Assembly (NCBI GenBank): GCA_950295325.1
Contig: OX485806.1
Location: 48,417,169-48,481,168, forward strand
Source of the DNA: Polytrichum commune
Lineage: Eukaryota > Streptophyta > Polytrichopsida > Polytrichales > Polytrichaceae
Reading direction: 5' to 3'
Length of the DNA: 64,000 nucleotides
Shown here: positions 2,471-63,990 of the stretch, in pieces
Numbering within the stretch: position 1 is the stretch's first letter
Layout: each line of letters begins with the position of its first letter
Notes under the pieces: model-generated
What the model was told of the DNA's origin: nothing
What the model saw: the letters and a program-made list of their open reading frames with translations, nothing else
Database searches by the model: none
Position numbers and translations under genes: made by a program

Positions 2471-2702
2471 TCAGCTTTGCATTTGCTTCATCATGGTCTC
2501 CTGAAATCCTAGTTGACTAGCTTCCAACATTTTTTTCCACATCTTCGAGTTGACTGTCCGCCCGAGGAGCTGGAAAAGCTAGTAGTGGCACCGACTCTCT
2601 AACTGCTAATGGCCTAGGTCCCGAGTCGGTAAGTGTTTGGGAAACTTGCCCTACATTTCTCCCTGACTCTCTCTCCAATGGTCTAGGGTGGATGGGTATG
2701 AA

Positions 2703-16934: not shown

Positions 16935-18880
16935 CTTGTTGTCACGCACAACCTCTTAACTCATAAGTAATCACATTAGCATTTGGAAGCCATTGGTCTT
17001 GTTCATCTCCAGGTGCTAATTGGAGGAGCAAGGATTCATCCATATGGTAATCTAGAGGCACATCCATGAACCTAACATCCTAAGAATTTGACGGCCCGAG
17101 TCATTAGGTGGGACTTGCCTCCTATTGTCGTGAGGTTGTGGACCCACTGGTTTATTTTGAATGGAAATGTATCCATTCGCCGTCTGTAAGCCAGCAGGCG
17201 GATGGAATGTCTGCCTAGCATTCCCATGATCGTAATAGAGATTTGGTGGTCTGAGCTCATTAGGAGGTCCACCCTGTGGCCTAGCACCTCTCAAATTGTC
17301 TCTCGCCTATTGGTATGGATTGGCCATGGGGTGAGGCATCCTAATGACCTTGTCAGGCTGACGACACTCGTCGGAAGGATGGTTCCCCCCACAATTACTA
17401 CAACCATAGCCCTGACCTTTCGACCAACACTGACCAGGGGAGTGCCACCTTCCACAGAACGGATGGAACTTCTTTCTCTCCGCATTCTGTCCACCTTGCC
17501 CTCTAGGAGGTCCCCTATAATTACCTTGACCCTGCTGATTCTATCCTTGAAATCTTTGGTTTTGTAGAGGTGGGCCGTCGATCATCATTTGATCACAGTT
17601 CTGCCCCACTCTACAAAAATGCTTAGTGTGTCCCGGTTGGCCACATTGGACACATTACAATCCTAATGCATGTCTCCCCGACTCTACGAGAGGAGGGGAA
17701 CCACGCTGCTGACTCCTAATCATCAATGACATCTGATCGGTAAGGCTCTACATCTGTTTCATTATGGCCTCCTAAAATCCCAACTGACTAGCACCTAACC
17801 TTCTCTCGACATCTTCGAGGTGAGGATCGACTCGAGGAGCTGGCAATGCTAACAATGGTGTTGATTCTCTCACTGCTAAAGGCCGTACATATGGAGCTTG
17901 ACTCCCATGCCTACCTGGTTCTCCCTCTGTTATCCTAGGACGGATGGGAATGAATTGAGGGATTGATTCATCCTCCTTCCTCCATAACCTCTCATAGTCC
18001 TTGTCTATGTGCTCCATTCTAAGGTCTGAGGGTTCCTCTCTAACACACCTCTTATCATTCCAGCCTTAAAGAATCATTGAATGAAGAATTGCTTTAGTGT
18101 GTCATCATTGAGCATTGTGCCAACAAAATGCGTACACACCAAATCAAATCTCCTAAGGTAAGCCAAAATCTCCTCATCTCTTCCCTGCTTTAATGACGCC
18201 AATGCTCTCAAAGCGGTACTTTGCCCTACCTCGGGTCTAAATTCATTCAAGAATTCCCTCTGCATTTGATCCCATCCTCTAAAATGACCCCCCGGGTGGT
18301 CTCTATTCCACTCATAGGCTTCTCCATCTAGAATGACAGGAAACCACACCAAGCGGTAACCCGGATCCGTAATGAGAGAACTAACTAACCTCTGAATATA
18401 TCTCTCCATGTGCCTCGAGTGGTCCTCATCTTTGGTCCCCCAAAACTTAGGGAGGTTGGATGGCATATCCACTGCCGCCAAGTTCTGTAGAACCAAAATT
18501 GGGAGACCTCTTGGCCTCACCAATGGATCGATGGGTGGGATGGGAGGAGGGCCTCCTCTCTCCCCATCCTGAGCCATGGTGACTGGTGTGTCTACTCTTA
18601 TTCCACTATCAATCTCTATGGGAGTGTCCCCTCTACCTACCTCAGTCTCTGATAATGTCTCGCCAATCAACTTGGAAGGAGTTGCATCTTTTTCAAGTTG
18701 AATTTCTACCTCTAAATTTTCTAAGAAATGACTACTTGTTGTTTCCACATTAACACAACTCTCTATTCTAGCTTCCACCTCTTCTACTATTTCACTAATC
18801 TTTGATAGTCTTTTTCTATGTATAATCTTGCTTAGTCCTAACTCCAAATCCGGCTTGTAAAATCGAGTCTTACCTTGCAT
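16935..18880 (-). pseudogene. Ty3/gypsy Gag with zinc knuckles (second copy, TY3-2)
   Basis: The ATG at 18880 opens a 268-codon frame (to 18074). It holds the same Gag capsid blocks as the copy at 2.7-3.6 kb: LPKFWGTKD, YEWNRDHPGGHFRGWDQMQ, LASLKQGRDEEILAYLRRFDLV. After a frameshift the chain continues at 18017-17772 and then through a CCHC knuckle CVQCGQPGHTKHFC at about 17590-17660. Two more Cys/His clusters follow in the basic, Gln/Pro-rich tail (one reads CSNCGGNHPSDEC, about 17390-17430). The open frame can be followed to about 16935. Gag packages the retrotransposon RNA. Stops and frameshifts make this copy defective, and no protease or RT follows it. Confidence 0.8.
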
Positions 18881-22145: not shown

Positions 22146-23574
22146 TGTGAGGCCAAACCACCCACCTTTAAGCGTCGTAGTCCGGGTGAGGGAGTGGGGA
22201 TCACATTCACGTTTACATATCTCCTTCTTCCCAACTTCGTAAACATCCATCACATTTCCCATCAATCATTGCACACCAATCCATTCTACGATAATATTAC
22301 AAGCGTTGACAAATGCTTTTCTCTATTATCACAATCATAACACCCCCTATTTGCGACCCCAATATCATTCACACCCCAAACTCAACCATTAATCCTACCA
22401 TCCAATAATTCTTGTCCTCCTAGCTTACTAATGAACTAATTATTTAAACTAATATTAACTGACAACCTAATCACTATCTATCATCTAGTCTAATGTGGCA
22501 CCACGGGCTCCCCCCTTTATGTCACCTTGTCCCCCTTTTAGTCCTCTAACTAAATCCCTCAAGGTCTTCGAATCTGCTGCCTATGGCCGTCCTTGGCAGC
22601 TGCTGCCCAACAGTTTAATCTTCAACTCTGCCCTTAGGCCATTCTCAGCAGCTGCTGCCCAACCAGTTTGATCTTCAACTCTGCCCTTAGGCCATTCTCG
22701 GCAGCTACTGCCCAACAGGTTAATTCTTGACTCTGCTCCTTAGGCCAATCTCGGCAGTTGCTGCCCAACCAGTTTAATCCTCAACTCTGCCCTTAGGCCA
22801 TTCTTGGCAGCTGCTGCCCAACAGTTTAATCTTTGACTATGCCCTTAGGCCATTCTCGGCAGCTGCTGCCCAACAGGTTAATCTTCAAATATACCTCTAG
22901 GCCATTCTCGGCAGTTGCTACCCAACCAGTTTGATCTTCAACTCTGCCCTTAGGCCATTTTCGGCAGCTGCTGCCCCCATTTTTCATACTAAGCCCCTAC
23001 CTGATCTCAATAATCTCTTCAAGATCTTCTTACTAACCTCCCCACCTAATTATACTAACTCCCCTAATACCCTCTTACTAATCTTCCTACCTAATTACAC
23101 TAACTCCCCTAATACCCTCTTACTAATTTACACACTTTCTTTCTAACTCTAAGAGCTCAAAATCCTAGAGAGGAGGGGGAGAAAGAAAGAAGAGGAGAAG
23201 AGAGGAAGAAGAAAAAAAATAAGGAGGAGAAGAGGGCACCCAAGACCACAACCCCTTAACCTTCTCCTACTTAGTAGGACCTTATCCTATCCGCTAAATC
23301 CTCACCCTCTAAACCAACAAGACCATGTTCTAATTCAAACATTTAAATCCAAGGCCCTTTCTCTTGCTTCATCAAACACTACTCACTTAACCAAAACACT
23401 CCCTAATGTCACTAAGTTTCTATTTAACCACACAAAATAGGCTTAAGGCCTAAAACATAAATTACACCAAGCCTCACTCTTTTTATACTTTTGATTGTTT
23501 TAATAACACTACAAATGCAATTCTAAATAAATTCTAAACATAAAACAAATATGAGCAATCATTTTGGGCTCATA
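22146..23574 (-). mobile_element. Solo LTR, beta family, inserted in an RNase H gene; target duplication TCCCC
   Basis: 1429 bp from TGTGAGGCC to GGGCTCATA. It is flanked by identical TCCCC at 22141-22145 and 23575-23579. Removing it would join the RNase H reading frame exactly at a Gly-Asp within LCQSTGDKGK, which proves it as an insertion. Inside, an approximately 65-bp motif (GGCCATTCTCGGCAGCTGC with variants, CCCAACAGTTTAATCTTCAA) is repeated about seven times at 22570-22975, and a shorter CCCCTAATACCCTCTTACTAA duplication lies at 23050-23120. Confidence 0.92.
22570..22975. repeat. About 65-bp tandem repeat inside the beta LTR
   Basis: Seven units share GCCCTTAGGCCATTCTCGGC, AGCTGCTGCCCAAC and a CAGTTTAATCTTCAACTC tail. 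Units differ by a few bases. It is a useful family marker because it lies within an LTR. Confidence 0.8.
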
Positions 23575-23578
23575 TCCC

Positions 23579-24370
23579 CCGTTGATTGACACAACGCACT
23601 ACCTACAGCCATCGCACTAGCATCACAAAACACACGAAATGGTTTTCCCCAATCTGGTGGTCTAAACACCGGGTAGGTGGTAAGCTTGGACCTCAACTCC
23701 TCGAATGCATGTTGGCATGCGTCTGACCACTCAAACTTACAATCATTTCTAAGCAATTGTGTGATAAATACTGCAATCTTTACATAATTCGGGATCAATT
23801 ATCTATACTACCCTACATGTCCCAACAACTTGGCTATCCCCCTAGCATTGGTCGGTGTAGCCAACTCATCTATCATTGCTATATTTTCTGGATCCAACTC
23901 TCTTCCTTTCTCACTTACCACATATCCTAACAAAACTCCTCTTTGCACTCCTAAGAAGGTCTTGTCCAGGTTCAAAGCCAACTGCATCTTCCTGCATCTA
24001 ATCAAAGCCTCTCTCACACACTCTAAAAATTGACTAGCACTAGACTGAGTGCTAAAATCATCTACAAACACTGTCATGGATTTGAAAAACAAGTTGGTGA
24101 AGATATACATGACCAATCTCTGAAGCGTGGCGGGGGCATTATACAATCCAAATGGCATGACCACCCACACGAACGTGCCCCAAGGAGTGGTGAAAGGCAT
24201 ATCTTGTAAAGCTATGGAAATCTGGTTATAACCCGCATAACCATCCATGAAAGTGTAACGAGCATGCCCACCTACCTCCTCTAAAAGTAAGGTGATGAAT
24301 GGTAAGGGGAAATGGTCTTTCTGTGTGCAAACATTCAACTTCCTATAATCTTCACACATCCTCAACTACA
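23579..24370 (-). pseudogene. Ty3/gypsy reverse transcriptase and start of RNase H
   Basis: The frame 24365-23808 runs from CEDYRKLN through FMDGYAGYNQI, TPWGTFVWVVMPFGL and the catalytic VFVDDFS box (a YxDD variant), then LLGYVVSEKGRELDP. After a small break the chain continues at 23798-23559 with LLRNDCKFEWSDACQHAFEELRSKL and FCDASAMAVGSALCQSTG, where RNase H starts. It polymerises retrotransposon cDNA. The upstream end at about 24370-24410 changes abruptly to sequence of a different Ty3/gypsy element, so this copy is truncated within RT. The RT is nearly the same family as TY3-1. Confidence 0.85.
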
Positions 24371-34387: not shown

Positions 34388-34391
34388 GCAT

Positions 34392-34934
34392 TGTCGTGTA
34401 AATAGCGATCATGTGTCACTGCAGCTCGAGTACCAACCACCACTAACAAACACTAAAACATAGCATAGTAACACATAAACAACACACCTCGACAGAGAAT
34501 GAAGAGAGTAGAATACTCACAATAGCTCTAAATCTCTCTTCAAATGCATACAAGTAGTCAAGCTATCTCTCATTCCACCAAGGGAGAATCCAAGAGTGTA
34601 AGTAGAGGGAGAAGAGCTCAAGATTTATTGCAAAATCATGCAATCTACACCTCACACAAGCTCTCTCCACACACTAACTCACAAGACTTGACTTGGCAAG
34701 AATGCCAAGCCAAGGAGGAGGCTCCTCACTTAGGAGCCTTCCTCTCCACATCTAGATTCATCCATCTAAATCTAGATGGATGAAATCCAACGGATAAGGT
34801 GCGGCCGTCGACGCCGCACCGTGACAGCTGTCGTATAAATAGCGATCGTGTGTCACTGCAGCTCGAATACCAACCACCACTAACAAACAACACTAAAACA
34901 TAGCAAAGTAACACATAAACAACACACCTCGACA
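34392..34934 (-). repeat. 3' LTR region with duplicated end segment (A-B-A')
   Basis: Segment A (34392-34494) and A' (34829-34934) are about 103-bp near-identical repeats, each running from TGTCGT(G/A)TAAATAGCG to CACACCTCGACA. They flank segment B (34495-34826), the block shared with the right end of the element. On the minus strand A' begins TGTCGAGG directly after a polypurine tract, as an LTR should. A and A' contain a TATA-like TTTATA (minus strand). B contains a perfect GC hairpin GGTGCGGC...GCCGCACC (34799-34821). The 79-codon plus ORF in B is not considered a gene. Confidence 0.7.
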
Positions 34935-34936
34935 TA

Positions 34937-34945
34937 CCCCCCCTC
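34937..34945 (-). promoter_or_regulatory. Polypurine tract before the 3' LTR
   Basis: The minus strand reads GAGGGGGGG then TA and TGTCGAGG. A purine run ending two bases before a TG is the normal primer site for plus-strand DNA synthesis. Confidence 0.7.
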
Positions 34946-35218: not shown

Positions 35219-35692
35219 TCATTGAGTACGATTAGTGGAAGCACCAAGTACCAAAAATCCTCGACAGCGAGGACAACTCCACTGTCCAGATGGTAGAGAA
35301 GTCAAGGGTGGCCTCAAGCATGCCATGTGCCAACCGCGTTGACACTGATCACACAAGAGCATAGTAGCCGCTCCTTTCTTCTCTCCACACACAAAACATG
35401 GAAGACCGTCTGGCACGACGGCCAGTTCAGGATGAACTGTACCCTCAATAGGTAGATGATATGGGGCACAGTTTTTGGAATGCTCGCGACATTCCCTGCC
35501 ATCCTTGCCTTCCAACAACAACAAACCACTCGGCAACACCTCCTTCACCCGAAGGATAGTGCGCCCCGCCCTGACATCCAATGTCGTAGGCGCCTCACGT
35601 TGGAGATAGACATAATCCCCCTGCCGGAATCTCCGCAACTGAGGTCGGTAAGCACCACTGCGAATGTGTGCATAACGCAATGTGTCACGGTG
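35219..35692 (-). CDS. Integrase C-terminal extension with PHD finger
   Basis: This frame continues the integrase polyprotein in phase after one UAG at 35693-35695. It reads an SH3-like/GPY-type region (RFRQGDYVYLQREAP, then ILRVKEVLPSGLLLLEG) and then a complete PHD finger at 35398-35264. Numbered from the ATG at 35680, the ligands are C95, C98, C110, C113, H118, C121, C136 and C139, spacing C-x2-C-x11-C-x2-C-x4-H-x2-C-x14-C-x2-C, with Trp immediately before the His. PHD fingers read histone H3 tails, so the inference is that it targets integration or tethers the methyltransferase to particular chromatin. The frame ends with TGA. It could be reached by readthrough of UAG or the UAG may be a mutated CAG (Gln). 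Confidence 0.85.
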   Translation of the reverse strand, partial: HRDTLRYAHIRSGAYRPQLRRFRQGDYVYLQREAPTTLDVRAGRTILRVKEVLPSGLLLLEGKDGRECREHSKNCAPYHLPIEGTVHPELAVVPDGLPCFVCGEKKGAATMLLCDQCQRGWHMACLRPPLTSLPSGQWSCPRCRGFLVLGASTNRTQ

Positions 35693-36290
35693 CTAAGCAA
35701 TGGACAAATTCTCCATGGCCATAGGCATGGCTCTCTGGAAGAATTGAGCCCGCTCCTGCAAACACTCTGCCCAAAGGTCTGGATCATCCAAGTTCACAAC
35801 AAGAGCTAGTTTTTCCCAAATAGAACTCGGGAGTATAGGCTCACGTCCATACAACAACTGATACGGGCTGTAGGACGCCAAAGAGGCATGCCTACTAAAT
35901 CGATAGCCCATAGCAATCCAAGGCAACATAAGGTCCCAATTCCGGTGGCTTCCCCGAAGTAATCCATACTTCCTCAAGCCACGCTTGGTTGTCTGAACAA
36001 CCCGTTCAGCCAAGCCATCTATCTCCGGATGATCCCGAGAGGTGGTGCGGTGATCTATGAGCGCCTTAGTGCACAACCCCTCAGAAACACCATGGAACTC
36101 CCTCCCTTGGTCCATCAGCACCTCAGCCGGTGCTCCAAAACGTGCCAACACACAATCCAAAAAGGCGGCTGCGGCCAACTCTGCAGAGTTTTGGGGTAAA
36201 GCAACAAGCTCAATCCACTTGCTAAAATGCTCCACCATCACCAACACGTACTTTGCTCCACGTGGCGTGACAACCAAACGGTCCCGCAAA
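35693..36290 (-). CDS. Integrase catalytic core (DDE)
   Basis: The frame carries VVTPRGAKYVLVMVEHFSKWIELVALP, then APAEVLMDQGREF with the second catalytic Asp (residue 60 of this frame) and GLAERVVQTTKRGLRKY with the catalytic Glu (residue 95). The Asp-Glu spacing of 34 residues is one shorter than the usual 35. The first Asp lies in SLDFAGPF at the end of the preceding frame, and one base of frameshift near 36290 separates them. It ends at UAG (35693-35695) before HRDTLRYAHIRSG, the normal integrase continuation. The protein would insert the cDNA into host DNA. All three acidic residues are present, so a related copy without the frameshift should be active. Confidence 0.88.
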
Positions 36291-38366
36291 GTCTAGCGAC
36301 CAACGGTAGCCCAATCCCATGATAGGTAAGGGCTGTAACTGAGGTGACAAGGTATTAAAGCTAAACCTGACCTGGTCACAAACTTCACACCTCCCGACAT
36401 AAGCAGCCACCTGCTGATACATGCCAGTCCACCAATATTGGCCACGCAACATCGAATGTGTCCTGCGTATGCCAAAATGGCCAAGTTCCTCGTGCACTTG
36501 TCGCACCAAGGAGGCCCTTTGATCCGGCCTAGGGACAAGACGCCTTGTCCCATCCGGCCACAATCGAAATAACAAACCGTTCTCCCAACGGAACCTTGTT
36601 ATTCGATGTCCAATCCTATCCCTTTCCATTGCCGAAATAGACAAAGGAAAGGTACCCTGTTGAAGCTTATGCAATACGGGATGATCCTCCCATATATCCG
36701 CAATAGCTTGAGGCCGATCAGTCTCATCATCCGAGCCCTGTATCGGAATCTCAACACATGCACCAGAAAATAAAGTGAGGTAGGCAGCCGTGTGCCAACC
36801 TGGAACCGCCTCTCGATCACAATCTCCATGCCACCTGGCCCCAGTCAAGTCCTCATCCGAAGGACTTGGATTGCGTGAGAGTCCATCTGCATCCATGTTG
36901 GTAATCCCAGCACGGTGTACCACCTCAAAGTCATACTCCTGGAGCAACAAAGCCCACCTGGCAAGCTTGCCAGTAAGCTTATCCGACTCCATGAGCCACC
37001 GTAATGGCTGATGGTCAGTCACTAAAGTAAAGTGCTGACCATAAAGATACGGCCGAAAATGGGCAATAGCCCATACTGCCGCCAATGCTTCTCCCTCGTA
37101 GGATGAATAATTAGCCTCCGCCGTGTTATTGCTTCGCGAAGCGTAAGCAACAACATACTTCCAGCCAAAATCATCTTTCTGAGTGAGAACTGCTCCCAAA
37201 CCCAATGAACTCCAATCTGTATGCAACTGGAAAGATTTGGAGACCTCTAGACGTCGAAGCACTGGAGCCGTACCTAGTTTCTGCTTCAATGTCTCAAACG
37301 CCTGTTGTTGCTCACGAGCCCAAGTCCACGGTTGGTCCTTGCTCGTGAGAATAGTGAGAGGCTTGGCAATCAAGCTAAAGTTCTTGACGAATCGCCAATA
37401 GTAATTCGCCAAGCCCAAGAAAGCACGAAGTCTCGGCACATCAACCGGTGCCGGAATCTTCTGCAAGGCGTCCACCTTAGCTTGTTGTACCCCAAGACCT
37501 CCTGGAACAATCATATGCCCTAGATATGCCAACCGGTCATGGAAAAACTTGCACTTGCCGTGGTGCAAGCGCAATCCCCACCGTTGCAACCGCTCAAAAA
37601 CGGCTTGAAGATGCCTTACGTGCTCCTGTGGTGTTATACTGAAAATGATAACGTCATCAATGTAACACCGAGTAAAGGGTAAGCCAGAGAGAACTTGGTC
37701 CATCACTCTCTGAAACTCCGCAGGTGCATTCTTCAGGCCAAACGGAAGAAACCTCCAATGGTAAAGTTGATCCTTCCCATCTTGATCAACTCCCCAGAAT
37801 GCGGTTTTCACTCGGTCTCCCACAAGTAATGGGAGTTGGTGATAGCCGGATCTCAAGTCCAACGTGCTAAAGACTCGAGCAAATCCGAGGGCATCGAACA
37901 ACTCCTCCGGGATTGGCATGGGATATCGATCCGACTTGGTCTTCCGATTAACTGGACGGTAATCCCCGCACATCCGCTTCTCCGTCCAATTGCCAAAGAT
38001 ATCCTTTTTCGATGGCATAACCGTAGCACAAGCATACTCCCCGTTGGAAAGTTCGATTAGCCTTGCTGCCAAAAACTCTCGGCAACGAACGTGAACGCCA
38101 CTCCGCTCGGAAACACTGAGCCTATAAGGTCTCCGAAAAATGGGATGGTCGTCCTCCAACTGAATGTGGATGGGCTTTACTTTATAACCTTCAAGATCTT
38201 GAAGGCTAAAAGCAAAACACCTACGGTACGAGCAAATAAATGCTCGTACTTTCCGTGCCTCAACACCAGTGAGATGAGGGCCCAATTCCAATGGCCAATC
38301 ATCAAACTCTGTGGTCTCCCTCTCTACTAGAAGAAAGCCACCTGGTGCTGGCACGGACTCTAACTG
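36291..38366 (-). CDS. Reverse transcriptase, RNase H and integrase zinc-binding domain
   Basis: A 710-codon open frame with no convincing start codon of its own; the annotated first codon at 38354 is GTG. Domains in order, numbered from that codon: connector with PIFRRPYRLS; RT palm with CGDYRPVNRKT, STLDLRSGYHQLPL (catalytic Asp about 166), FLPFGLKNAPAEFQR and the YIDD box at 231-234; FLGLANYYWRFV junction; RNase H with LHTDWSSLGLGAVL, YEGEALAAVWAI and VTDHQPLRWL (D-E-D); then the integrase HHCC zinc-binding region HEELGHFGIRRTH...CEVC. It synthesises and processes retroelement cDNA. It follows the methyltransferase frame in the same phase after one UAG. The frame proper stays coherent to about 36290; the ORF itself runs on in the wrong frame to 36222. 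Confidence 0.92.
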
Positions 38367-38369
38367 CTA
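38361..38369 (-). promoter_or_regulatory. UAG stop in TMV-type readthrough context (UAG CAG UUA)
   Basis: On the minus strand CAT-TAG-CAG-TTA ends the protease-methyltransferase frame and is followed in the same phase by the RT frame. CAR-YYA directly 3' of UAG is the well-known leaky-stop context first described in tobacco mosaic virus. Alternatively the UAG is a recent CAG-to-TAG mutation. Confidence 0.6.
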
Positions 38370-40790
38370 ATGGGAGGAGGGGGCATTAACCATGCCCCCA
38401 ACCTCCGTGCTAGCAATAGAGTCCATCCCCTCTTCATCACCAACAATATGTGATGATGAAGCCACCACCGGAGGTGAAGAAGCCAAAGCAGTATAAACTC
38501 GTTGAGCTTGGAGCTCCTCCATCACCTGCTGCTCGAATCGACAGATTCGTTCGGCTTCTCCAACCATGACCTCAATTTCTTCCTCCATGGATGTGGACCA
38601 TTGTTCCCCTTGACCAGAATCCTCTGCCCCCAGAGAGAACAACTGGTCACCATGATGTTGTTGCAATGCAAGGCATAAACCAACAGTCCACACCATGGTA
38701 TGAAGATTCATAGCTTGACCCAACACGAAGCGTCGTTGGCCCTCAGAAAGGTTAGGAGTTCCGGTGGTGCCAGTTCGGAATCCCATGGCCCGCTCTCGTT
38801 CGTCAGCCAACGGTTCGGTGTGGATTTTGGTGTTAGCATCCCACACCATACCCGGCCCCCGATCGCGAAAGGCGAATGACTGTGGAAACGTCATAAAGGT
38901 GGGAAAGGCCTTCCGTGGTGCCCCCACTTTGTTGACCAATGCCAACGGGGGTAAATCATCTCGAACAACCGGCAAAGAGGTCCGGTTTGGATCCAAGATG
39001 TCATCCACCTTCTGATCCAAAGGTGGAGACACTGCAGAAAATGTTGTAGCTAAAGTAGATGACGGTGCGAGGTTGGTCCAAATCCACCGAGGCCGGTGGG
39101 CATAAGAACCAATGCTCGCAGCATCCACAAAAATGGGATCTCCAAGGTGTTGACGGACATAATGACTGCCTTCCAACACCTTGTCCCGAGAGTCTCCCAA
39201 CAAAGGTACATTCTTGAAGATATACCTTGGAGGGGAAGGCTGGTGGGTAAACCACCACTGCATAAGCCGGATGAGGTCCCAGAAAAGGCTAGACCTAGGA
39301 TCCTCTAAACCTCGGCCTGCTCCAGCACGTGAGTGGCCTTGGCATGGCCATCCCGCAATCACCATATCCACCGGGCCCAAGTGTCGTAAGTCGGCCTCAT
39401 TGATGAGTGTAACATCACGAGGGAGACGTGAAAAACACCCACGAATGGCAGTTGGAGGTAACTGCTGGGGGTACAATACCATCAACTGGTGAAGATGGTG
39501 ACGAGCCACACGGGTGGACACTTGAGAGTTGTCCACATAAACATACCGTCTAACCGTGAGGCCAGCCTCCAATACGGCCGCTAAGCCTATGCAGATGCCC
39601 CCAAACAGTTCCACCAAAATAATACCCGCGTCTGGCGGTTGCCATAAAATGGGATGTGCCAATGCCGAGAGGACACCCGGTATGATCGGTGTCCTAGGAG
39701 TGAGAGAGTGGACAATATCCTCGCATCTCCGAAATAGCTCGGCGGAATCACGCCAAGGAGGAAGGGGATCCTTGGGATGGCGCACCAATGCATTTTTAGG
39801 TGCCATATCTCGTTGATCGTTTATACTCCCCATGAATGCCAATGACTCCTCCAACAATGCGGAACCATAAGGCAATGTGTCCACCATAGCACCACATCCA
39901 AAAACCATAGATAATGGTGCTATGGTCGCGGCCGCCGCGAAAGCCACGGGAATAAGTTCCCTGCGGCCATCCCCAGCCGACCAACCTGGTTGGATCCACG
40001 CCTCCTCAGTCCAGTTGTCCAAACCAAAACCAAGAGGGTAAAGTGCTTGCTGACCAACTAAAATGTCATAGTTGGTCGCATTTGTCACCGCACACCTAAG
40101 AAGAAGAGGTGCGGGTGAATCTCCAGGCTTCACTCGGAAGCTAAGCTGTAATGGCTCTCGAGTATAACCCATGGCTCGCTCCACGTAACCAATGGATGTG
40201 ACAATGGTGAATGGACAGGGAGCCAAATCCTCGGCCGTCAACCTCAACTCTTGGGCAAGCCTCTTGCCGATCATAACTGGCTGTGCCCCTGAATCCATCA
40301 TCACACAACGGGGAGCAACCCGAGTAGCATTGCTCCCAGTGCGACTGACCACCAAAATTCCGGTATTATTCACCATATGCACAACGCCGGGTCGAATGCC
40401 GCGGCGCTCGCGGACAGGTCTAGCAGCGACATAAGACAAATAGGCTGCACCCGCGGATACTGGTGAGTCATAAGACGTGGTCGGTGCCTTGTCATCTGAG
40501 GCGTGTGCTTCAAAAGACGCAATGGTCTCTGCCGCAAGTCTCGCTCGCCGTTTGGCCACATCCTCAGGATCTTCAGAAGCAAGGATGTCCGTAGTGGCTT
40601 GAGCCACGGTCAGAGAAGGTAAGGATGTCTTCCCTTCCAAAATCCTACCTGCTAAGTGAAAAACCTTAGCAGGTTGGAACTCTGGCGATGACCACTCCAT
40701 GGCCGTGAATAAAGGTGTGTGTAACACCTTGGATGCCAACGTGTGCGCCACATCAGTCGCTGAATGTGAAACCTCATCGTTCGGATGACG
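38367..40790 (-). CDS. Aspartic protease fused to a C5-cytosine DNA methyltransferase
   Basis: 794 codons from the first ATG (40751); the frame is open a little upstream and is entered from gag by a -1 shift near 40790. Residues 145-245 form a retropepsin: CVMMDSGAQPV (active Asp 153) and ILVGQQALYPLGFG. Residues 378-690 form a complete C5-MTase: motif I LVELFGGICIGLAAVLEAG (379-397); motif IV GWPCQGHSRAG with the catalytic Cys 470 and GLEDPRSSLFWDLIRL; motif VI FKNVP (512-516), where the catalytic Glu is Lys; motif VIII AHRPRWIWTNL (551-561); motif IX ERERAMGF; motif X QRRFVLGQAMNLHTM. The AHRPRWIWTNL and RYVYVD segments resemble DNMT3/DRM enzymes more than DNMT1/CMT. It would add methyl groups to cytosine in DNA. 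Only the E-to-K change is obviously disabling. Confidence 0.92.
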   Translation of the reverse strand, partial: RHPNDEVSHSATDVAHTLASKVLHTPLFTAMEWSSPEFQPAKVFHLAGRILEGKTSLPSLTVAQATTDILASEDPEDVAKRRARLAAETIASFEAHASDDKAPTTSYDSPVSAGAAYLSYVAARPVRERRGIRPGVVHMVNNTGILVVSRTGSNATRVAPRCVMMDSGAQPVMIGKRLAQELRLTAEDLAPCPFTIVTSIGYVERAMGYTREPLQLSFRVKPGDSPAPLLLRCAVTNATNYDILVGQQALYPLGFGLDNWTEEAWIQPGWSAGDGRRELIPVAFAAAATIAPLSMVFGCGAMVDTLPYGSALLEESLAFMGSINDQRDMAPKNALVRHPKDPLPPWRDSAELFRRCEDIVHSLTPRTPIIPGVLSALAHPILWQPPDAGIILVELFGGICIGLAAVLEAGLTVRRYVYVDNSQVSTRVARHHLHQLMVLYPQQLPPTAIRGCFSRLPRDVTLINEADLRHLGPVDMVIAGWPCQGHSRAGAGRGLEDPRSSLFWDLIRLMQWWFTHQPSPPRYIFKNVPLLGDSRDKVLEGSHYVRQHLGDPIFVDAASIGSYAHRPRWIWTNLAPSSTLATTFSAVSPPLDQKVDDILDPNRTSLPVVRDDLPPLALVNKVGAPRKAFPTFMTFPQSFAFRDRGPGMVWDANTKIHTEPLADERERAMGFRTGTTGTPNLSEGQRRFVLGQAMNLHTMVWTVGLCLALQQHHGDQLFSLGAEDSGQGEQWSTSMEEEIEVMVGEAERICRFEQQVMEELQAQRVYTALASSPPVVASSSHIVGDEEGMDSIASTEVGGMVNAPSSH

Positions 40791-41008
40791 ACCACTGACA
40801 GATGATCGGCCAATCCAAAAGATAATGGTAGTCGTGCCTGACCAATTTGGTCCGCGGGCGCATTGTCCCGAGCTCGCGAGCTTGCCACATATTCATTTGT
40901 AGTCGAAGGTATGGATTGTGACACGGCTTGAGCACGTGTCACGGCGGCGGAACTCACCACCTCGCCCGAGGCTCCGAACATATAGTAATCCGGAGTGGAA
41001 GAACTAGC
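40652..41008 (-). CDS. Gag-pol junction, open in the gag frame after the gag UAG
   Basis: After the UAG at 41009-41011 the gag frame stays open for 119 codons to 40652 (ASSSTPDYYMFGASGEV onward, rich in Ala, Ser and Arg). Around 40790 the sensible protein sequence passes from the gag frame into the pol frame (LSFGLADHLSV to SGRHPNDEVSHSATD), which is a -1 change. No classical X-XXY-YYZ slippery heptamer is evident. It may be a mutation in this copy. Confidence 0.55.
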   Translation of the reverse strand, partial: ASSSTPDYYMFGASGEVVSSAAVTRAQAVSQSIPSTTNEYVASSRARDNAPADQIGQARLPLSFGLADHLSVVVIRTMRFHIQRLMWRTRWHPRCYTHLYSRPWSGHRQSSNLLRFFT

Positions 41009-42445
41009 CTAAGCTCCGGAGGAAGACGGTGAGGCCAAGATTTGGCCGGATGACGCCAAGCTTTTGAACCTCTCCTCCATGGCTCCAATCTTCGCCTCCA
41101 ACGTCTTCTCCCGGTCGGAAAAAAAACGTTTCTCAGGATGGAGAGCAAAGCAGTTCTCTACCGCGTGATTGTTCCGCCCACAATGGGAACACTTCAACTG
41201 CTTGGGTAACTGATTACCCGTCGTCCCCTTCGTCGAGCCCTTAGCGGAAACAAATGGCTTCCGCTTCGGAGTAGTGACGGTCTGGGCTTGCCTTTGCTTC
41301 GAAGGACAGTCCTTCTTAGCGTGGCCGGCCTGCCCACAAGACCAACAATACATGGTCTTGTCTACCTCGGCGTCCGCCAATCCCGCAGCCGCAACTGGAA
41401 CTCTTCGGGATTTGCTAGAATCCACTAGCAAGGACACCAAATCAGTGGCATCGTGCTGACATAATGCACGATCACACTGCTCCACCACGGCGAATGCCTC
41501 TGCGAGTGTCGCTCGACCACCAAACTCCATGATGATCCTGGGTAGCTCCAAGTCAAGGAGACGTTTGTCAATCTTTGACAAAAACACCTTCACCAACTGA
41601 CTTTCCGCGAACACACCTCCAGATTCTCTGGCAAACCTCGCCAACCTCGTATACATGGTACGAGGTGTATCGTCCTTCTCCCGTCTAAAATCTTGTATCC
41701 GCTGCATCTGGTCACGACGGAAGCCTCCGTACTCCCCCTGTAGATGCAGCTCAAATGCCCGCAATGGCTCAAAATCTGGCGGAGCCCCTAAAGAGGCTAA
41801 AGCCGCTTGGGTGGCCATGGCATAACGCGAGAGTGGAAGAACTGGGCTCGACGTACTCGCCGCAGTGGGAGCAGGACCCGTAGCCCTCGGCTCACCAGGA
41901 GGAGCTCCCTCGACATCCACCACATAACCTCCCTCCGGTACCTCCGTCTTGACATCCGGAACGGCCATTAAACTGGAAGCTGCGCCTTCTTTCAATGCGA
42001 ATACCAACTCAACCCGAGTCTCCCAGTACCGCTCCACCTGGCGCAGCTCCATCCAATGAGCCTCCGTCCACTGCTCATAAGTTTGGAGAGCTTCATGCTC
42101 TAAATGCTGAGGCAGAAGCTTAAACGCATACCAATCGTTAAAATTGGTATTGCGTTGGCGTTTCTCTCGCATCCACGTACGAAACCGGATTTTCCAGTCT
42201 TGCAGAGAAATGGTCCCTGCTCGACCGGAAAACTGGTCATGTATCCCTCCCTTAGTCTCCTCCTCCATATCGTCAAAGGTTCCCACCCACAAGACGTGAG
42301 ACCGAGTGATAGTCCCCCACGCCGAAGTAGGCTGAAAAGCCTCGTTGGGTGCTACCACTAGTTCAACGTCCGAGAGGTCCGAGGGATGACCTTCCGATGC
42401 TCCTAGGGACGGAGAACGATAGTGTTGAGTACGAGTTGTAACCAT
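41009..42445 (-). CDS. Gag polyprotein with two CCHC zinc knuckles
   Basis: 478 codons from ATG 42445 to UAG 41011-41009, uninterrupted. The N-terminal third (ISLQDWKIRFRTWMREKR, FNDWYAFKLLPQHLEHEALQTYEQW) and the middle (LRAFELHLQGEYGGFRRDQMQRIQDFRREKDDTPRTMYTRLARFARESGG) have a Gag-type helical composition that differs from the Gag families elsewhere in the window. Two knuckles follow, CWSCGQAGHAKKDC and CSHCGRNNHAVENC, both C-x2-C-x4-H-x4-C. The tail ends EAKIGAMEERFKSLASSGQ, a possible short coiled coil. Gag would form the particle and package RNA. The long intact frame shows that this element is young. Confidence 0.9.
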   Translation of the reverse strand: MVTTRTQHYRSPSLGASEGHPSDLSDVELVVAPNEAFQPTSAWGTITRSHVLWVGTFDDMEEETKGGIHDQFSGRAGTISLQDWKIRFRTWMREKRQRNTNFNDWYAFKLLPQHLEHEALQTYEQWTEAHWMELRQVERYWETRVELVFALKEGAASSLMAVPDVKTEVPEGGYVVDVEGAPPGEPRATGPAPTAASTSSPVLPLSRYAMATQAALASLGAPPDFEPLRAFELHLQGEYGGFRRDQMQRIQDFRREKDDTPRTMYTRLARFARESGGVFAESQLVKVFLSKIDKRLLDLELPRIIMEFGGRATLAEAFAVVEQCDRALCQHDATDLVSLLVDSSKSRRVPVAAAGLADAEVDKTMYCWSCGQAGHAKKDCPSKQRQAQTVTTPKRKPFVSAKGSTKGTTGNQLPKQLKCSHCGRNNHAVENCFALHPEKRFFSDREKTLEAKIGAMEERFKSLASSGQILASPSSSGA

Positions 42446-44388
42446 AAACCCACAATGGGATGGTCACCGAATCAACAACCCAAATGAATTAGTATCCAGG
42501 TACAAAGAGAAAAAAGATCAAAGGCAACCTGCACCTGCAACCACCACCAAAACTTATGGTCTGCTGGTCATTAACCCAGCCTCACCACAAGTGAAAACAA
42601 GCACCGCCCACTTGGTGCACAAACAAAGGTCCCGTCGGTCATTAATCCGACCTCACCTCCACAGTACCCTATCACAATCTAGGACTACACAAAATGGGGC
42701 AGTGCTAGAACACTCCAGCACTACAGCCCGCCACAGGGGAAGGTACCAAAACAAAATACAACGAACAATGCAAGAACAACACTAGATCCTCTTCCCCAAA
42801 ACAACATTCAAGCAGAAATTGAAAACGACCGCAACCAACTAGCACCCGCCTGCAGTTGGTGGTCAAAATAAAGAGTTCCTGTTGCTTAAGAAAAGGAAAT
42901 GCTAACTATGCACATCTCTCATCTAGTACTATAATATAAAATCCTCTCCTTCCTAAAGTCCTTGGAATTTGTGTTGCTTAACACAATTCGTGCTTAACAA
43001 ATTATCTTGTTAAGTCGAATGGTAATTCCATATCCAATTCGCTCCATCCCTAGGCAATCCCTAAACAATTTATAAACTTATACCAAAATAAAATCTACAA
43101 CAACAATCAACCTATCCCCAAATAAATCCTACACCTATCCCCAAATAAATCTCAATGCCCTTATTTTCCTTCTAAACAAAGAAATGGAAAATCCCTGCTT
43201 ATGCCAAGTACCTCTATCAAGTCATTGCGGGAGAAAATGAAGCTAACCGCAAATTCGCCGTGTTCCCACGCCCTCCGCGTGTTGCCGGATGCTACCGCGA
43301 ACATCTCCCACAATGTTCCACCCCTCCCAACAAAATGATTGTGTACCAAATGTATACACAACCCACAATTGCCAAGAAACTCGAAAAGGTGCCCTCAACC
43401 TTGGCGCCGAAGTGGGTTATTCATAAGTCCAAGAATTTCATTTTGTTATTTCTTGACCTCTCGAGACCTTAGTTCATTGTATTTTTTTTGTTGTTGTATT
43501 GAAAAATACAATGACAAATAGAATCAACTAATTCTTTTTTTTAAATAAAATATTTTTTTTAAATAAAACTAATAATATAAAAAAAAGGCTGCAGCAGACT
43601 GCCGAGAGGGAATGGGGAGGGGGAGGCTAACCTAGGAGGTAACCGGCCAGGGGGGTGGGGCCAGGGAATGGAACCGGCCGGGGGGGTGCCTATGGGCTAG
43701 GGGGAGGGGTTGTAGGCTAGGGGGGAGGGCTGGTAGGCCTAACTTAAGGGGGTTAGGGGTAGCTTAGGGAGGGAGGTGGGGTGGGGCCTAACGGCTAGGG
43801 GGGAGGGGCTGGTAGCTTAGCTTAGGGGGGGGATTTAGGGGTAGCTTAGGGGGGGGGAGGGAAAAAGGGAAGGCAGGGGGGAGTTGGAGAGGAGGAAGGG
43901 GGGAGGAAGAAGGGGGAGGGGAGGGGAGGGGAGGGGAGGGGAGGGCGGCGGGGAGGGGCCCGGCCCAGCTTGCCGCCGGCCGCCGCCGAGCTGCCGCCGC
44001 AGCCCGGAGTCCAGAGAGCTCCGGCTCTCGGCACCGCTCTACCTCTTATTCTCTCCTTTGTTTAATTTTTTTTATTATAAATTTTTTGAATGAACTTGAA
44101 CTCAAATTGGAATGAAGAGTGCTCTACACAAGCTCAATGATACGAATTCAAGCTTGCAAGCCGAAAAATGACAAGGAATTTCGTAGACAATTCAATAATT
44201 CATCACCACAATTCACCTTGATGTGGCCTTCATAAAAACAAACATTCTTCATATTGTTGCGCCGCAAATCCGCGGTGTTCTCTCTCCAGAACTTCGTAAC
44301 TTCATCACTCCTTGTCCTCACGCCTTTCCTTGTGTGTTATATATCAAGAATGTAGAGAGAACAACAAAAATGAAGCATTCTTGCCAAG
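42446..44388 (-). other. Long 5' leader of the methyltransferase retroelement
   Basis: 1.9 kb without a convincing ORF between the right-hand LTR and gag. It contains a GC-rich island (43590-44040, listed separately) and a perfect 12-bp inverted repeat CATTGTATTTTT / AAAAATACAATG at 43475-43486 and 43502-43513. No clear primer-binding site is seen; TTGGCAAGAATGC directly inside the LTR (minus strand, about 44387-44375) is only a candidate. Confidence 0.55.
43590..44040. repeat. GC-rich island with dense G-runs
   Basis: The plus strand holds dozens of runs of four to nine G, with recurrent GGCTAGGGGGGAGGG, TAGCTTAGGGGG and (GGGGA)n units at about 43905-43945, and ends in CCGCCGCCG-type sequence. 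The surrounding DNA is strongly AT-rich. On the element's coding strand it is C-rich, and the Pro-rich ORF over it is a translation artefact. Confidence 0.8.
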
Positions 44389-44723
44389 TGAGAATGAAGA
44401 GAGTAGAACACTCACAATAGCTCTAAATCTCTCTTCAAATGCATACAAGTAGTCAAGCTATCTCTCATTCCACCAAGGGAGAATCCAAGAGTGTAAGTAG
44501 AGGGAGAAGAACTCAAGATTTATTGCAAAATCATGCAATCTACACCTCACACAAGCTCTCTCCACACACTAACTCACAAGACTTGACTTGGCAAGAATGC
44601 CAAACCAAGGAGGAGGCTCCTCACTTAGGAGCCTTCCTCTCCACATCTAGATTCATCCATCCAAATCTAGATGGATGAAATCCAACGGATAAGGTGCGGC
44701 CGTCGACGCCGCATACCGTGACA
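44389..44723 (-). repeat. 5' LTR (B segment only) of the methyltransferase retroelement
   Basis: Nearly identical to 34495-34826, starting TGAGAATGAAGAG and ending GCATACCGTGACA; the GC hairpin carries a two-base insertion (GCATACC for GCACC). The A segments found at the left end are absent. Read on the minus strand it begins TGTCACGG, a good LTR start. Confidence 0.75.
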
Positions 44724-44727
44724 GCAT

Positions 44728-51485: not shown

Positions 51486-54145
51486 CTATTTTTTTCCTAT
51501 TACCGTGCTATCACTTTCAAGAATGATGGGCATCTGCACAAGACGAGCCCTCACAACACGTCCTGAACCTCTTGGATGTGAGAAGTTTACCTTGTCAGGC
51601 TGATGAAACTCCTCTTCAGCTCCAAGAGGTAGATCTGCCTTTCGCTTCTTGGACCCGAATACCTCTTCTCCAGCCATGCGAGGAACACGGGTACAAAACT
51701 CTTCTGCTCCAGGCATGTCCAGCATGGGGTCTTCAAGCATTAAAGGATTACCTGTTTGCTTCGCCCTGCGCTCTACCATCCTTAGTTTGAGCTCTTTCTT
51801 TGTAGGGCCTGTTCCACCGACGTCACCTTTCAGGAACTGGTAGTAATTGACAACCTATAAGAAGCCTCGAACGAAGTCGTCTACTGTAACAACGTAGAGG
51901 TCACCGCCGCTGTTTCCAGACGCTTGAAGCCAGTTGTTGTGTATTGTTTTAGCTAGATTACATGAAGGCATTTCTGCTAGTTTTTCTTTTGAAAATTTAT
52001 GCAAGTACGTAGTGGAAGTAGTTAGAGATTAGTGAAGAGTTGTTTCATATTAGAGTACTGTGAAAAAAAGGAAAATAATATGAAATGTATTGGAAAAACA
52101 TACCCCGGTCATGAAGCCTCCCCATTGGCGATAACGGTAGTGCCAGAATGCAAGCCAGAGCTCTAGTTTGTTTAGGGCCTTCTCTATCATTGCCCCGGCG
52201 GATACCCACCATGCACGTAGCCCGTGGTACATACTCTCCGCTTCGTCCATGGTCCTCGCCGTCCTATACTGGTGGCACATCTTCTTGTGCTGCTCCCAGA
52301 GTTCTTCGGGAATGTACTTCTCGGTATACTTAACCATAGACTGGGTCTAGTGAAACTGACAGGTTCTTTCGCGGTCGTCCATGCGGTCCTCCTTCTTCCC
52401 GTTGCCATATATGACCCGAACTGCATTCCAGTTGGCCTGGGCGCTGTCGGCTATGAAACCCTTGAAGTTGGGCTTGACAATGCCATTTCTCTCCATGACA
52501 GCATTGAGATTTTCCAGAAAACGATCTGGGCATCAGAGTCCTCAGATTGCATGTCACAACTTGCAATGGTCATAACACGACAATATGTGGAGTCATACAC
52601 GTGGCATGCCATTGTGGTCCATTGTCTTACACGTTTGACATGGTCGAACATCATCCAGACATTCTCCAGATCTTTGCCGGGCTGCATATGCTTCACCAAG
52701 TCTACCCCACTACCAGGCCCGACTTTCGACATTTTGAAGACAAAAACCTTGTCAAGATCAGCCCCTTGACTTGGAAATTTGTTCTCCTGAATAAAGGCCC
52801 ATAAACTGATTCCACGGAGTTTGGTGATAGAGTCCATGACACCATATCTTCTGAGGAAACGGAAGCTCATGACCTTGTTGCGGATGTTTGGGGAAGCCAT
52901 GTCCTTGCATCGGTCAAATAGAGGAACAAGTTCCTCTAGACTAAGCTTCTTTGGTGGCGCATCATTGGGTTGAAGAAGATAGTTGCCAATTAAAACTTTG
53001 CTAGCCTCCAACACCACTGCACTCTTGGTAGCCTGGGGAGTCTTCTCGATCTGTTCTTCAATTAGGCCACTGATCTCAGCCTTAGTGTCTCTGTAGTCGC
53101 CCACCTTGACTGGGTGATCGTGAGTTCCTAGGTGGATACACGCTCTTGTATGGTTGATTTTGCCAGCCACATAATAAATCTTTGCTCCACATATAGCAAT
53201 ACATGCCGGGGGTTCTTTACATACCTTGCAAACAATAGTGGACTCAGTTGGGGGTGTTTGATCCACTACAAAGGCTTGCAGGGTACAACCTTCAAACTCT
53301 ATCTCGTTAATTTGGAAAATACGAGGACGGCGGATCAGATATTCGCAGTCCTTGTTGTTGCAACGCATGTATCCAACGCAGGCGGAAGAACGGAAGGACA
53401 AACCAAAGTCGTTTGTGATGTTGGTGGTGATGGTCTTCGTCCACACATGGCCGTCGTAACGCTTGTCCATTCCCTGCATAGACTTGGCCTGTGACCGTGC
53501 GGCCGTGTGACCAGCGGGTGGCAACTCAAATATGACGGCACTGGCATATTTTTTTCCCAGGCATTCCGGCGAGTTGTTTAAGTAATGGTAATATGCTAAC
53601 AGTATCTTGTGACAATTGATATACTTTAGGAGTGTTCCCACTAACTATGACCTTAGGCGGGGCCTTTGTGGGACTGCACTCTTCATCAGAAGAAAATGTT
53701 ATTACAGACTGAAATGTAACGTTTTCTATAATTGGCATATCGAGACCAGGCTCGAGGTTGACCTTCACATCACGTGGCAGAGGAGTTTGAATGGTGCAGG
53801 TAGAGGAAGAACGAGGAGTAAGGATCTCAGTAGATGCAGCCATCTGAGAATCAGTGAGGCCATACACTCAGTAACTACCTGGATGAAGATTCCAAAACAA
53901 GTTATTGTTCTCATGTCGCTGCGAAACCCGACCAAGGGTGTGTGTAAGCTCAGACGTGACAACGTCAAAAATATCCTCGTCAACAATAATAGTGTCTTCT
54001 CGGAAGCCGAACCGAAGACTCAAACGTTGTGACGTCACGTAAGCTAGTCCGTTCTCCTCCATCCGAAAGGTAAGTGGAACTCTAACTCCATCAGCATAGA
54101 AGACAACCATCCCCAACTCTCCGTTAGCAGGAAGATGAGCCATGA
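51486..54145 (-). pseudogene. Mutator-like (MULE) transposase, copy 1
   Basis: Probable start at the ATG near 54142 (MAHLPANGELG). N-terminal exon to about 53880; then a Ser/Pro-rich linker; then 53570-52510 with a Cys/His-rich region (YMRCNNKDCEYL, STIVCKVCKEPPACIAIC, RACIHLGTHDHPV); then the catalytic region: VYDSTYCRVMTIASCDMQSED, NFKGFIADSAQANWNAVR and RTCQFH-stop-TQS, where aligned acidic residues and the C..H pair fit the MULE DDE fold. The helical tail LELWLAFWHYRYRQWGGFM and an MPSCNLA..IHN region follow. The protein would cut and move the element. Frameshifts near 53560 and 52510, a UAG in HWTQS (about 52347) and loss of the C-terminal zinc finger make it a pseudogene. It is homologous over its length to copy 2. 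Confidence 0.75.
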
Positions 54146-55399: not shown

Positions 55400-56800
55400 T
55401 CCATAGAGATATGGATCTCTTTGTTTGGGCTTGGCATGTAGAAGTTATGGCCAGTAGAATGGAAGGTGGTCACCTGGGAGGGTATGCCGTTGACGGCAAT
55501 ACTTTCTCAAGCCTTATTTTCTACTCATTACTTTGGTTTGCTTTGATATTTTTAGAAATTTGAGATGCTAATGTACACTTTTCATAGAGATAAAGAATTC
55601 TTCATTTGAACTTGGCATGTAGAAGTTATGGCCTTTAGAATGGAGGGTGGTCACCTGGGAGGGTATGCCGTTGACGGCAATGCTTTCTTAAGCAATATAT
55701 TCTAGCTATTGCTTTTGTTTGCTTTGATATTTTCACACAATTGAGATGCTGATGTTAGCTTTTCATAGAGATAAAGACTCCTTCATTTGGACTTGGCATG
55801 TAGAAGTTATGGCCTTTAGAATGGAGGGTGCTCACCTAGGAGGGTCTGCGGTTGACGGTAATGCATTCGTAAGCCATATTTTCTAGCCATAGCTTTTGTT
55901 TGCTTTGATATTTTTAGATATTGCAGATGCTGATGTTGGCTTCCCAAAGAGGTTACAATCATTTCATTTGGACTTGGCATATGGAAGTTATGGCCTTTAG
56001 AATGGAGGGTGGTCACATGGGAGTGTATGCCGTTGACGGCAATGCCTTTGAAATCATATTTTCTAGCCATTTGTTTGCTTTGCTTTGATATCATTAGAGC
56101 TTGCAGATGCTGATGTTGGCTTTCCAAAGAGGTCATGATCATTTCATTTGGACTTGGCATATAGAAGTTATGGCCTTTAGAATGGAGGGTGGTCATGTGG
56201 GAGTGTATGCCGTTGACGGCAATGCCTTTGAAATCATATTTTCTAGCCATTAGTTTGCTTTGCTTTGATATTTCTAGAGCTTGCAGATTCCAATGTTGGC
56301 TTTTCAAAAAGGTGAAGATCTCTTCATTTGGACTTGGCATGTGAAAGTAATGGCCTTTGGATTGGAGGGTGGTCACTTGGGAGTGTATGCCGTTGACAGC
56401 AATGCATTTGAAGTCATATTTTCTAGCCATTAGTTTGCTTTGTTTTGATATTTCTTGAGCTTGCATATGCTGATGGTAGTTTTCCAAAGCGGTAAAGATC
56501 TCTTCATTTGGACTTGGCATGTGAAAGTCAAGACCTTTGGATTAGAGGATGGTCACCTGAGAGTGTATACCGTTGACGGCAATGCCTTTGAAGTCATATT
56601 TTCTAGCCATTAGTTTTGTTTGTGTTGATATTTCTAGAGTTTGCACATGCTGATGTTGTCTTTTCAAAGAGGTGAAGATCTCTTCATTTGGACTTGGCAT
56701 ATGAAAGTCATGGCCTTTGGAATGGAGGGTGGTCACCTGAGAGTGTATACCGTTCACGGCAATGCCTTTGAAGTCATATTTTCTAGCCATTAGTTTGCGG
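55400..56800. repeat. 180-bp tandem repeat, eight units, 60-codon periodic reading frame on the minus strand
   Basis: The anchor GCCGTTGACGGCAAT recurs at about 55485, 55666, 55850, 56029, 56209, 56389, 56570 and 56750, a period of 180 to 184 bases. On the minus strand most units are open in one frame and encode a 60-residue unit containing ARKYDFKGIAVNGIHSHVTT, HSKGHNFHMPSPNE and SLESQHQHLQALEISKQSK. Two open runs are 56790-56542 and 56520-55816, separated by one stop; units at 55400-55815 are more diverged and closed. The plus strand carries stops in all units. Whether it is translated is unknown; it may be an intronic satellite in the plus-strand gene. Confidence 0.8.
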
Positions 56801-63700: not shown

Positions 63701-63990
63701 GTATTCTGGCCATGGTCACCTAAAGGTGGAAATTCGAAGATAACGTCCCCATCGTAACGAGGGGGAAGGTAATCAACCTGCTGGAGTTTGATTGCATCAA
63801 TGTTAATTCGAGATAACACACTTTTGGACTGTTTACGAGCTCCAAGGCGCATCAATGAATGAATGATACTGACAATAGGACTTGATACAACCTTGGACTG
63901 ACAAGGATTACGAGACGGATTAATAGGAGGAGTTGTTTCCTTGCGAACTACTTCTGGAGACAGCGAAACTTGGACTTTACTCTATGATCT
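60783..63990 (-). pseudogene. Mutator-like (MULE) transposase, copy 2, more complete at its 3' end
   Basis: Parallel to copy 1: 63855-63160 carries the Cys/His region (STIVCKSCNVPPTCVAVC, RACVHLGSHDHPV); 63046-62770 VMDSITKLRG and KVFVFKMFEVGPGSGVDPVK; 62856-62353 the catalytic region VYDSTYCRVMTIPVCDMQSK, NFKGFMADSAQANWNAVR, RTCLFHWTQSL (Trp present where copy 1 has a stop) and LELWLAFWHF. 62233-61979 continues with MPSCNLAESIHNKWKQQSG. The C-terminal frame 61244-60783 ends in a SWIM-like zinc finger, CQH...ANCKH (C-x-H-x(n)-C-x-H rather than C-x-C). SWIM fingers are usual at MULE transposase C-termini. Frameshifts near 63160, 62800 and 61990 and stops at 61260-61750 mark it as degraded. The N-terminus may extend past 64000. 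Confidence 0.75.

Follow-up and report, generated by a model that had tools for sequence, protein, structure and literature searches.

Does a moss retroelement carry a cytosine methyltransferase (MTase) of its own and, if so, is the enzyme a property of the family or of a single copy? The question is raised by a stretch of Polytrichum commune DNA (assembly GCA_950295325.1, contig OX485806.1, 48,417,169–48,481,168; 64,000 nt, hereafter the window), in which a first-pass annotation had described a long terminal repeat (LTR) retrotransposon encoding a C5-MTase. On the minus strand of the window, from 44723 to 34392, lies a 10.3-kb Ty3/gypsy-type retroelement whose domains run in the order Gag, retropepsin, DNMT3-like C5-MTase, reverse transcriptase (RT)-RNase H, DDE integrase and PHD finger. 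Our preferred reading, which we consider probable as a whole, is that the copy here is dead and belongs to a recently active, DNMT3-carrying Ty3/gypsy family in which the MTase would be made on the Gag side of a readthrough stop, reverse transcription would be self-primed, insertion would proceed from a circle and the MTase would act on the element's own DNA.

Identity of the methyltransferase and protease

The frame that joins protease (PR) and MTase runs from 40892 to 38367 on the minus strand and spans 841 aa, bearing out the annotation's claim that a DSGA retropepsin precedes a C5-MTase in one frame; the plus strand of 38367–40790 contains many stops in frame 1. PF00145 matched this frame, as the annotation had anticipated, with E 2.7e-10 (40.6 bits versus a cut-off of 22), and the closest solved structures were DNMT3A (E 1.9e-9) and DNMT3B, with HhaI and DRM ranking behind them. 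Alignment upheld the reported succession of motifs I, IV (PCQ), VI, VIII, IX and X, which is unpermuted; a permuted DRM-type enzyme was rejected on this basis. Neither PWWP nor ADD had a Pfam match in the PR-MTase frame. Motif VI, however, is KNV in this copy versus ENV in the majority of siblings, and motif I differs from most siblings at two further positions.

The protease is less sharply defined. PF00077, proposed earlier as a check, was absent from the Pfam matches; PF13650 appeared instead, under the cut-off both in the window (E 0.073) and in a sibling (E 0.0015), and also in the precomputed annotation of four homologues (P0013, P0015, P0017 and P0019). Pfam evidence alone being weak, the protease call is carried by the DSGA motif and the family alignments. 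Pfam matches to RT-RNase H and to the rve integrase agree with the Ty3/gypsy assignment made at first pass.

Read 5' to 3', the element comprises repeat A1, a putative primer binding site (PBS), a leader of ~1.9 kb, gag, a linker, PR-MTase, a TAG codon, RT/RNase H/integrase, the PHD finger, a G-run and repeats B1-A2-B2, as follows (window coordinates):

44724–44727 (−): left 4-bp target-site duplication, ATGC, equal to 34388–34391
44390–44723 (−): repeat A1, left terminus TGTCACGG; aligns to A2 over 331 positions with four mismatches and one gap
44586–44600 (−): 15-nt PBS-complementary stretch inside A1, putative RNA 5' end and self-primer (motif count and RNA fold)
44375–44389 (−): putative primer binding site ACTTGGCAAGAATGC, adjoining A1; identical 15 nt in 8/8 elements
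41009–42463 (−): gag frame, ending at a TAG; CCHC zinc knuckle at E 0.0011, just under the Pfam cut-off
40652–41008 (−): gag-PR linker in a second frame, with a frameshifting deletion near 40803 (sibling comparison)
38367–40892 (−): PR-MTase frame, 841 aa stop to stop (open reading frame and Pfam)
40284–40295 (−): DSGA protease motif (alignment)
38664–39632 (−): DNMT3-like C5-MTase domain, residues 421–743 (Pfam and solved-structure matches)
39339–39347 (−): motif IV, PCQ, intact (sibling alignment)
39207–39215 (−): motif VI, KNV here versus ENV in 40/43 siblings (sibling alignment)
38361–38369 (−): conserved in-frame TAG CAG TTA, in a readthrough context of tobacco mosaic virus (TMV) type (sibling alignment)
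36222–38366 (−): RT, RNase H and integrase H2C2 frame, cut short near 36278 by a 1-nt insertion (Pfam and siblings)
35693–36292 (−): integrase core (rve) in a shifted frame, with a TAG where a sibling stays open (Pfam)
35219–35692 (−): C-terminal part of the integrase, with the PHD finger at 35264–35398 (Pfam)
34935–34945 (−): polypurine-type tract GAGGGGGGGTA before B1; a G-run of six or seven in all nine elements listed
34829–34934 (−): repeat B1 (repeat alignment)
34827–34828 (−): GC, the 2-bp spacer separating B1 from A2 in the palindrome GACA-GC-TGTC; same in 7/9 elements
34495–34826 (−): repeat A2 (repeat alignment)
34392–34494 (−): repeat B2, right terminus ACGACA (repeat alignment)
34388–34391 (−): right target-site duplication, ATGC, equal to the left copy

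Sibling copies: decay, youth and selection

A search of the 407.8-Mb assembly with the PR-MTase frame returned at least 54 places, the window's own included (54 scored of 950 first-look candidates, in 55 rows of which two are one copy), the others at 80–93% protein identity to the window frame. Since these copies were found by similarity to PR-MTase, their counts favour copies that keep the MTase, and family members without it would go uncounted. Sibling DNA was examined for 44 of the 54 copies including the window, and in each of the 43 others the MTase occupies the same position; the idea that it is a passenger gene in a single copy, which the annotation had named as grounds for refutation, was thus rejected. 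Intact motif VI, for which a search had been proposed, is common (ENV in 40 siblings, KNV in 2, DNV in 1), and PCQ is kept in 41/43. Fifteen of the 43 siblings lack any stop or frameshift in the stretch examined, among them one with KNV and two with altered protease motifs.

Judged by its sequence, the window copy is dead: besides KNV, it carries two frameshifts (the deletion near 40803, seen against five of the eight siblings covering the site, and the one-base insertion near 36278, seen against 3/3) and two stops, one in gag and one after the integrase core. A number of siblings retain gag-PR-MTase as a single open frame of 1360–1372 aa. Comparison of the repeats indicates that the family was recently active, with young insertions bearing identical repeats: the three youngest copies differ between A1 and A2 at 0/334, 0/333 and 1/333 positions, with 0/106 between B1 and B2, and four other elements including the window are older (1 to 6% A1–A2 divergence).

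Pairwise dN/dS among 15 copies (98 pairs for the MTase) averaged 0.25 for the MTase, 0.39 for the protease, 0.22 for the part preceding the protease, 0.61 for the linker and 0.72 for the tail. Across 13 copies with long open RT frames (67 pairs; in five of the copies the PR-MTase frame is interrupted by stop codons, which the calculation skipped), the values were 0.24 for the MTase and 0.12 for RT. Means exclude pairs with dS under 0.02. These values indicate that the MTase is under purifying selection, though less so than RT.

Relatives and history of the MTase association

Three protein searches, each scoring the ~8000 best candidates, gave at least 27, 35 and 83 matches, which overlap. Most of the matches listed carry no species label and none bears the name Klebsormidium; the named species are Marchantia polymorpha, Closterium sp. 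and, weakly, Haematococcus lacustris. RT, rve and PHD are also present in many relatives. The MTase takes one of two positions, either ahead of RT or between RNase H and integrase. The latter, sister architecture, often with a PHD finger, is found in P0044, P0046–P0048 and ~40 others, and 14 of 43 relatives that have it carry ECQ instead of PCQ. Across a set of 105 relatives, some of them fragments, the catalytic Cys survives in 99 of the 101 that have a residue at that position and the motif VI Glu in 103 of 104; Glu frequently takes the place of the Pro in PCQ. Four Closterium proteins (P0026, P0027, P0081 and P0083) have altered catalytic motifs, ESQ or ECQ, with EHL in two, pointing to a possible non-catalytic use of the domain. 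In viral contigs, 28 loci matched short MTase stretches at 29–60% identity.

Trees of the MTase (87 rows, including fragments of unknown order; 6 short rows, P0110, domain-less rows and 13 near-copies left out) and of RT (59 rows, each with a long stretch of both RT and MTase) were quick, midpoint-rooted constructions with some long branches. On each of them, among rows of known order, the position of the MTase changes once. Distances on the two trees correlate across the 59 rows (r 0.89, with 0/2000 shuffles as high) and within the larger group of 41 (r 0.70). Given this agreement and the single change of position, a single old association that moved once is favoured over repeated capture. 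For Klebsormidium, an independent acquisition of the MTase is stated by de Mendoza et al. 2018 (PMC5890265).

A conserved stop codon and the predicted role of the MTase

The first-pass annotation had the frame leading directly into RT; instead it closes with a TAG, and RT begins in the same frame immediately 3' of it. The TAG is present in the window and in 43/43 siblings, followed by CAA TTA in 35, CAG TTA in 6 (as in the window) and other bases in 2, so that the TMV-type context TAG-CAR-YYA is found in 41 of the 43 and in the window. CAR YYA after UAG is reported to be essential for TMV readthrough (PMC2754532). Among 14 copies with a long 3' flank (one of them incomplete), 3 have 1048 codons open past the TAG, the remaining long-flank frames being broken by stops or by the end of the stretch; the other 29 loci end ~500 codons past it. 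In the one sibling post-TAG frame scanned, RT, RNase H, integrase and PHD all lie above Pfam cut-offs. Gag-starting proteins P0002–P0009 and P0013–P0016, known from proteins alone, end near the same boundary, and the more distant relatives P0040, P0041 and P0052 are fused across MTase-RT.

We place the MTase on the Gag side because the conserved TAG separates it from RT. Ribosomes would mostly halt at the TAG, so that MTase output would match that of Gag and the enzyme would enter the particle; occasional readthrough would yield a polyprotein with RT and integrase. As for its target, the enzyme would most likely methylate the element's own DNA, be it the cDNA, the circle or a newly inserted copy. 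The PHD finger most closely resembles those of CHD4, PHF12, Lid (KDM5 kin) and DPF3. Several PHD fingers of that sort read the unmodified H3 tail, and this one may steer integration.

Priming and the route of integration

The first-pass label of LTR retrotransposon holds in part: the ends are of the TG..CA type with target duplications (in 6 of 7 elements), and the repeats are split as A...B-A-B rather than forming plain LTRs. No full LTR is shared by both ends; the order is A at the 5' end and B-A-B at the 3' end. Fourteen three-prime stretches were fetched, of which 9 contained A or B and 5 neither; B-A-B was found in 8 of the 9 (in one of them the final B is interrupted), and the remaining stretch had B alone. 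Seven elements had both ends comparable (the left end is missing from L067, and the L059 stretch showed no A1), and a 4-bp target duplication flanks TGTC...GACA in six of them (ATGC in the window; GATG, GAGA, GGTT, ACTC and ACCC in the others). At the B1|A2 joint, 7/9 elements read GACA-GC-TGTC, that is, the two termini abutting across a 2-bp spacer. At the A2|B2 joint, complete in 8/9, the end of A that faces the PBS meets the start of B that faces the G-run.

The element appears to prime itself. A complement to the PBS lies ~210 nt upstream, inside A, at its full 15 nt in 5/8 elements; the pattern occurs three times in the window versus 0.12 expected, and an RNA fold pairs the PBS with its complement in A1 (z −3.6). 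The RNA would start inside A, and its 5' end would fold onto the PBS next to A1 and self-prime. Tf1/Sushi elements are reported to self-prime, and Tcn1 elements are predicted to do so (PMC6317226). A 'TGG' is present 3 nt into the PBS. Because the entire 15-nt PBS has a complement in A, we prefer self-priming over a tRNA primer.

With a PBS after A1 and a G-run before B1, at which plus-strand synthesis would start, ordinary reverse transcription would give a linear cDNA of the form (B-A)...(B-A). We infer that the observed order arises when this molecule is circularised and reopened at the B|A boundary: the cDNA ends would be joined, leaving the A2|B2 junction as the preserved joint, and integrase would cut the palindrome GACA-GC-TGTC rather than the cDNA ends, yielding an A...B-A-B insertion with a 4-bp target duplication. 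On this reading, split repeats combined with integrase-type ends imply a circular precursor.

Alternative explanations

A number of observations weigh against the reading favoured here. Among relatives, the catalytic Cys is lost in P0026 (ESQ) and P0051 (PYQ), and within the family the MTase is less constrained than RT (0.24 versus 0.12). Self-methylation might leave a CG-specific mutation excess, and none was found among the copies: singleton transitions per site were 0.252 at CG, 0.218 at CHG and 0.245 at CHH (L064 and L069 excluded), and the CpG observed/expected ratio is 0.63–0.78 in the MTase frame versus 0.30–0.74 in 4-kb pieces of the window. The PBS complement is shorter in 3/8 elements (13, 11 and 9 nt), the 13-nt case being the young L063 and the 11-nt case being truncated at that point. 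L066 has both ends and no target duplication, L066 and L067 deviate at the B1|A2 palindrome, and four bases are missing at the A2|B2 joint of L072.

Some of these observations would fit an MTase kept as a passenger or structural part, needed for folding or particle assembly and not for methylation. Its weaker constraint than RT, the lack of CpG-specific decay and the retention of the domain in two Closterium relatives whose motifs read ESQ/ECQ and EHL all point that way; catalytic residues are nonetheless conserved both across the relatives (Cys in 99/101 and Glu in 103/104, fragments included) and within the genome (PCQ in 41/43 siblings, ENV in 40/43), and we regard a purely structural role as improbable. 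More improbable still is a TAG that arose long ago by chance, with RT expression beginning at its own start. In favour, MTase and RT share one frame in P0038, P0040, P0041, P0049 and P0052; against this, the same stop codon recurs in 43/43 copies, in a readthrough context in 41, and the other stops are scattered.

The circular route faces a stronger competitor, in which an unusual strand transfer during reverse transcription makes the linear A-to-B molecule directly. Retroviral and Ty3 integrases act on linear DNA, and strand transfers could in principle regenerate split repeats; the standard route from a PBS after A1 and a G-run before B1 nevertheless leads to B-A...B-A, and the A2|B2 joint corresponds to the right end of that cDNA fused to its left end, given the PBS and G-run assignments, which are themselves inferred. 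We judge a direct linear product unlikely, though it carries more weight than the alternatives for the MTase and the TAG. A DIRS/PAT-type element, its split repeats placed by a tyrosine recombinase, would account for the A...B-A-B pattern, which resembles that of PAT, Toc and Kangaroo (PMC4157794). This is very hard to reconcile with the rve core and H2C2 domain, the TGTC...GACA ends and the 4-bp target duplications, and no tyrosine recombinase appeared among the Pfam matches of the frames scanned; the DIRS identity was rejected on the duplications and the missing recombinase.

Relation to known elements

Gypsy elements carrying a DNMT3 together with DIRS-like repeats are already known from Klebsormidium nitens (KnitGypsy-Dnmt3, PMC5890265). 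As described there, KnitGypsy-Dnmt3 shares with the moss element its Gypsy domain composition, an unrearranged Dnmt3-type MTase within a polyprotein, purifying selection and, going by the wording of the Fig. 4 legend, a DIRS-like repeat structure. It differs in having the DNMT in the Pol polyprotein frame, whereas here the MTase lies with Gag upstream of the conserved TAG, and in a Ka/Ks below 0.2 (about 0.25 here). In domain content and repeat order the moss element is of the KnitGypsy-Dnmt3 kind, in a variant layout with the MTase outside the Pol frame. We found no mention of PHD, readthrough, primer binding, self-priming or target site in the main text of PMC5890265. The same paper describes SymbioDIRS-Dnmt3 and SymbioLINE-Dnmt from Symbiodinium, likewise retroelement-borne C5-MTases (SymbioDIRS with two domain orders), which differ in their DIRS (tyrosine recombinase) and LINE machinery and dinoflagellate hosts.

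The split direct repeats, of the order A1-B1-A2-B2, are known from the tyrosine-recombinase elements PAT, Toc and Kangaroo (PMC4157794), in contrast to the DDE integrase and 4-bp duplications found here. Tf1/Sushi and Tcn1 would resemble the moss element in predicted self-priming (PMC6317226); they belong to the chromovirus clade, and the moss element is set apart by a PHD finger and split repeats. The main text of that plant LTR survey makes no mention of methyltransferase, PHD or Marchantia. Mammalian DNMT3A/B provide the best-matching solved catalytic domain, with the same unpermuted motif order, and differ in that no PWWP or ADD was matched here and the MTase is joined to PR and Gag. For retrotransposon-encoded DNMTs, de Mendoza et al. 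2018 was the sole paper among the matches listed, drawn mainly from open-access literature, and a 2025 paper restates its finding (PMC12344493). As far as these searches show, three things are new: the Gag-side MTase with a readthrough-type stop, the pairing of split repeats and integrase-type ends, and how broad the clade is.

Other features of the window

Remains of other retroelements (Retrotrans_gag, a weak protease and RVT_1) lie at 1123–3458, 18074–18880 and 23808–24365, all on the minus strand. Two long frames at 52451–53644 (−) and 62353–63981 (−), mutually similar by eye and possibly transposase-like, had no Pfam match, nor did two consecutive frames at 57639–59464 (+), the second of which contains DLTAGTG, by eye resembling a SAM-binding loop. 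Tandem arrays occur at 55414–56797 (180-bp unit, 7.7 copies, partly within an open frame) and 22595–22976 (53-bp unit, 7.3 copies).

Implications

Bacterial minicircle transposons are cut where two future ends abut. By analogy, we tentatively raise a broader combination, which we think somewhat doubtful: a circle-integrating Ty3-type element whose DDE integrase would cut the palindrome of its abutting ends, whose Gag-linked MTase would methylate that DNA, and whose clade would trace to a single early gain of the MTase in the green lineage, with Klebsormidium as a branch and not a separate capture. With split repeats and integrase-type ends in the same element, a circular precursor of integration becomes open to direct testing, and Gag-side placement would make the MTase abundant in particles. 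If the MTase is active, the question becomes why a parasite would write the very mark that hosts use to silence it. For the retroelements themselves, our data shift DNMT capture from a set of isolated cases to an apparently old and widespread clade.

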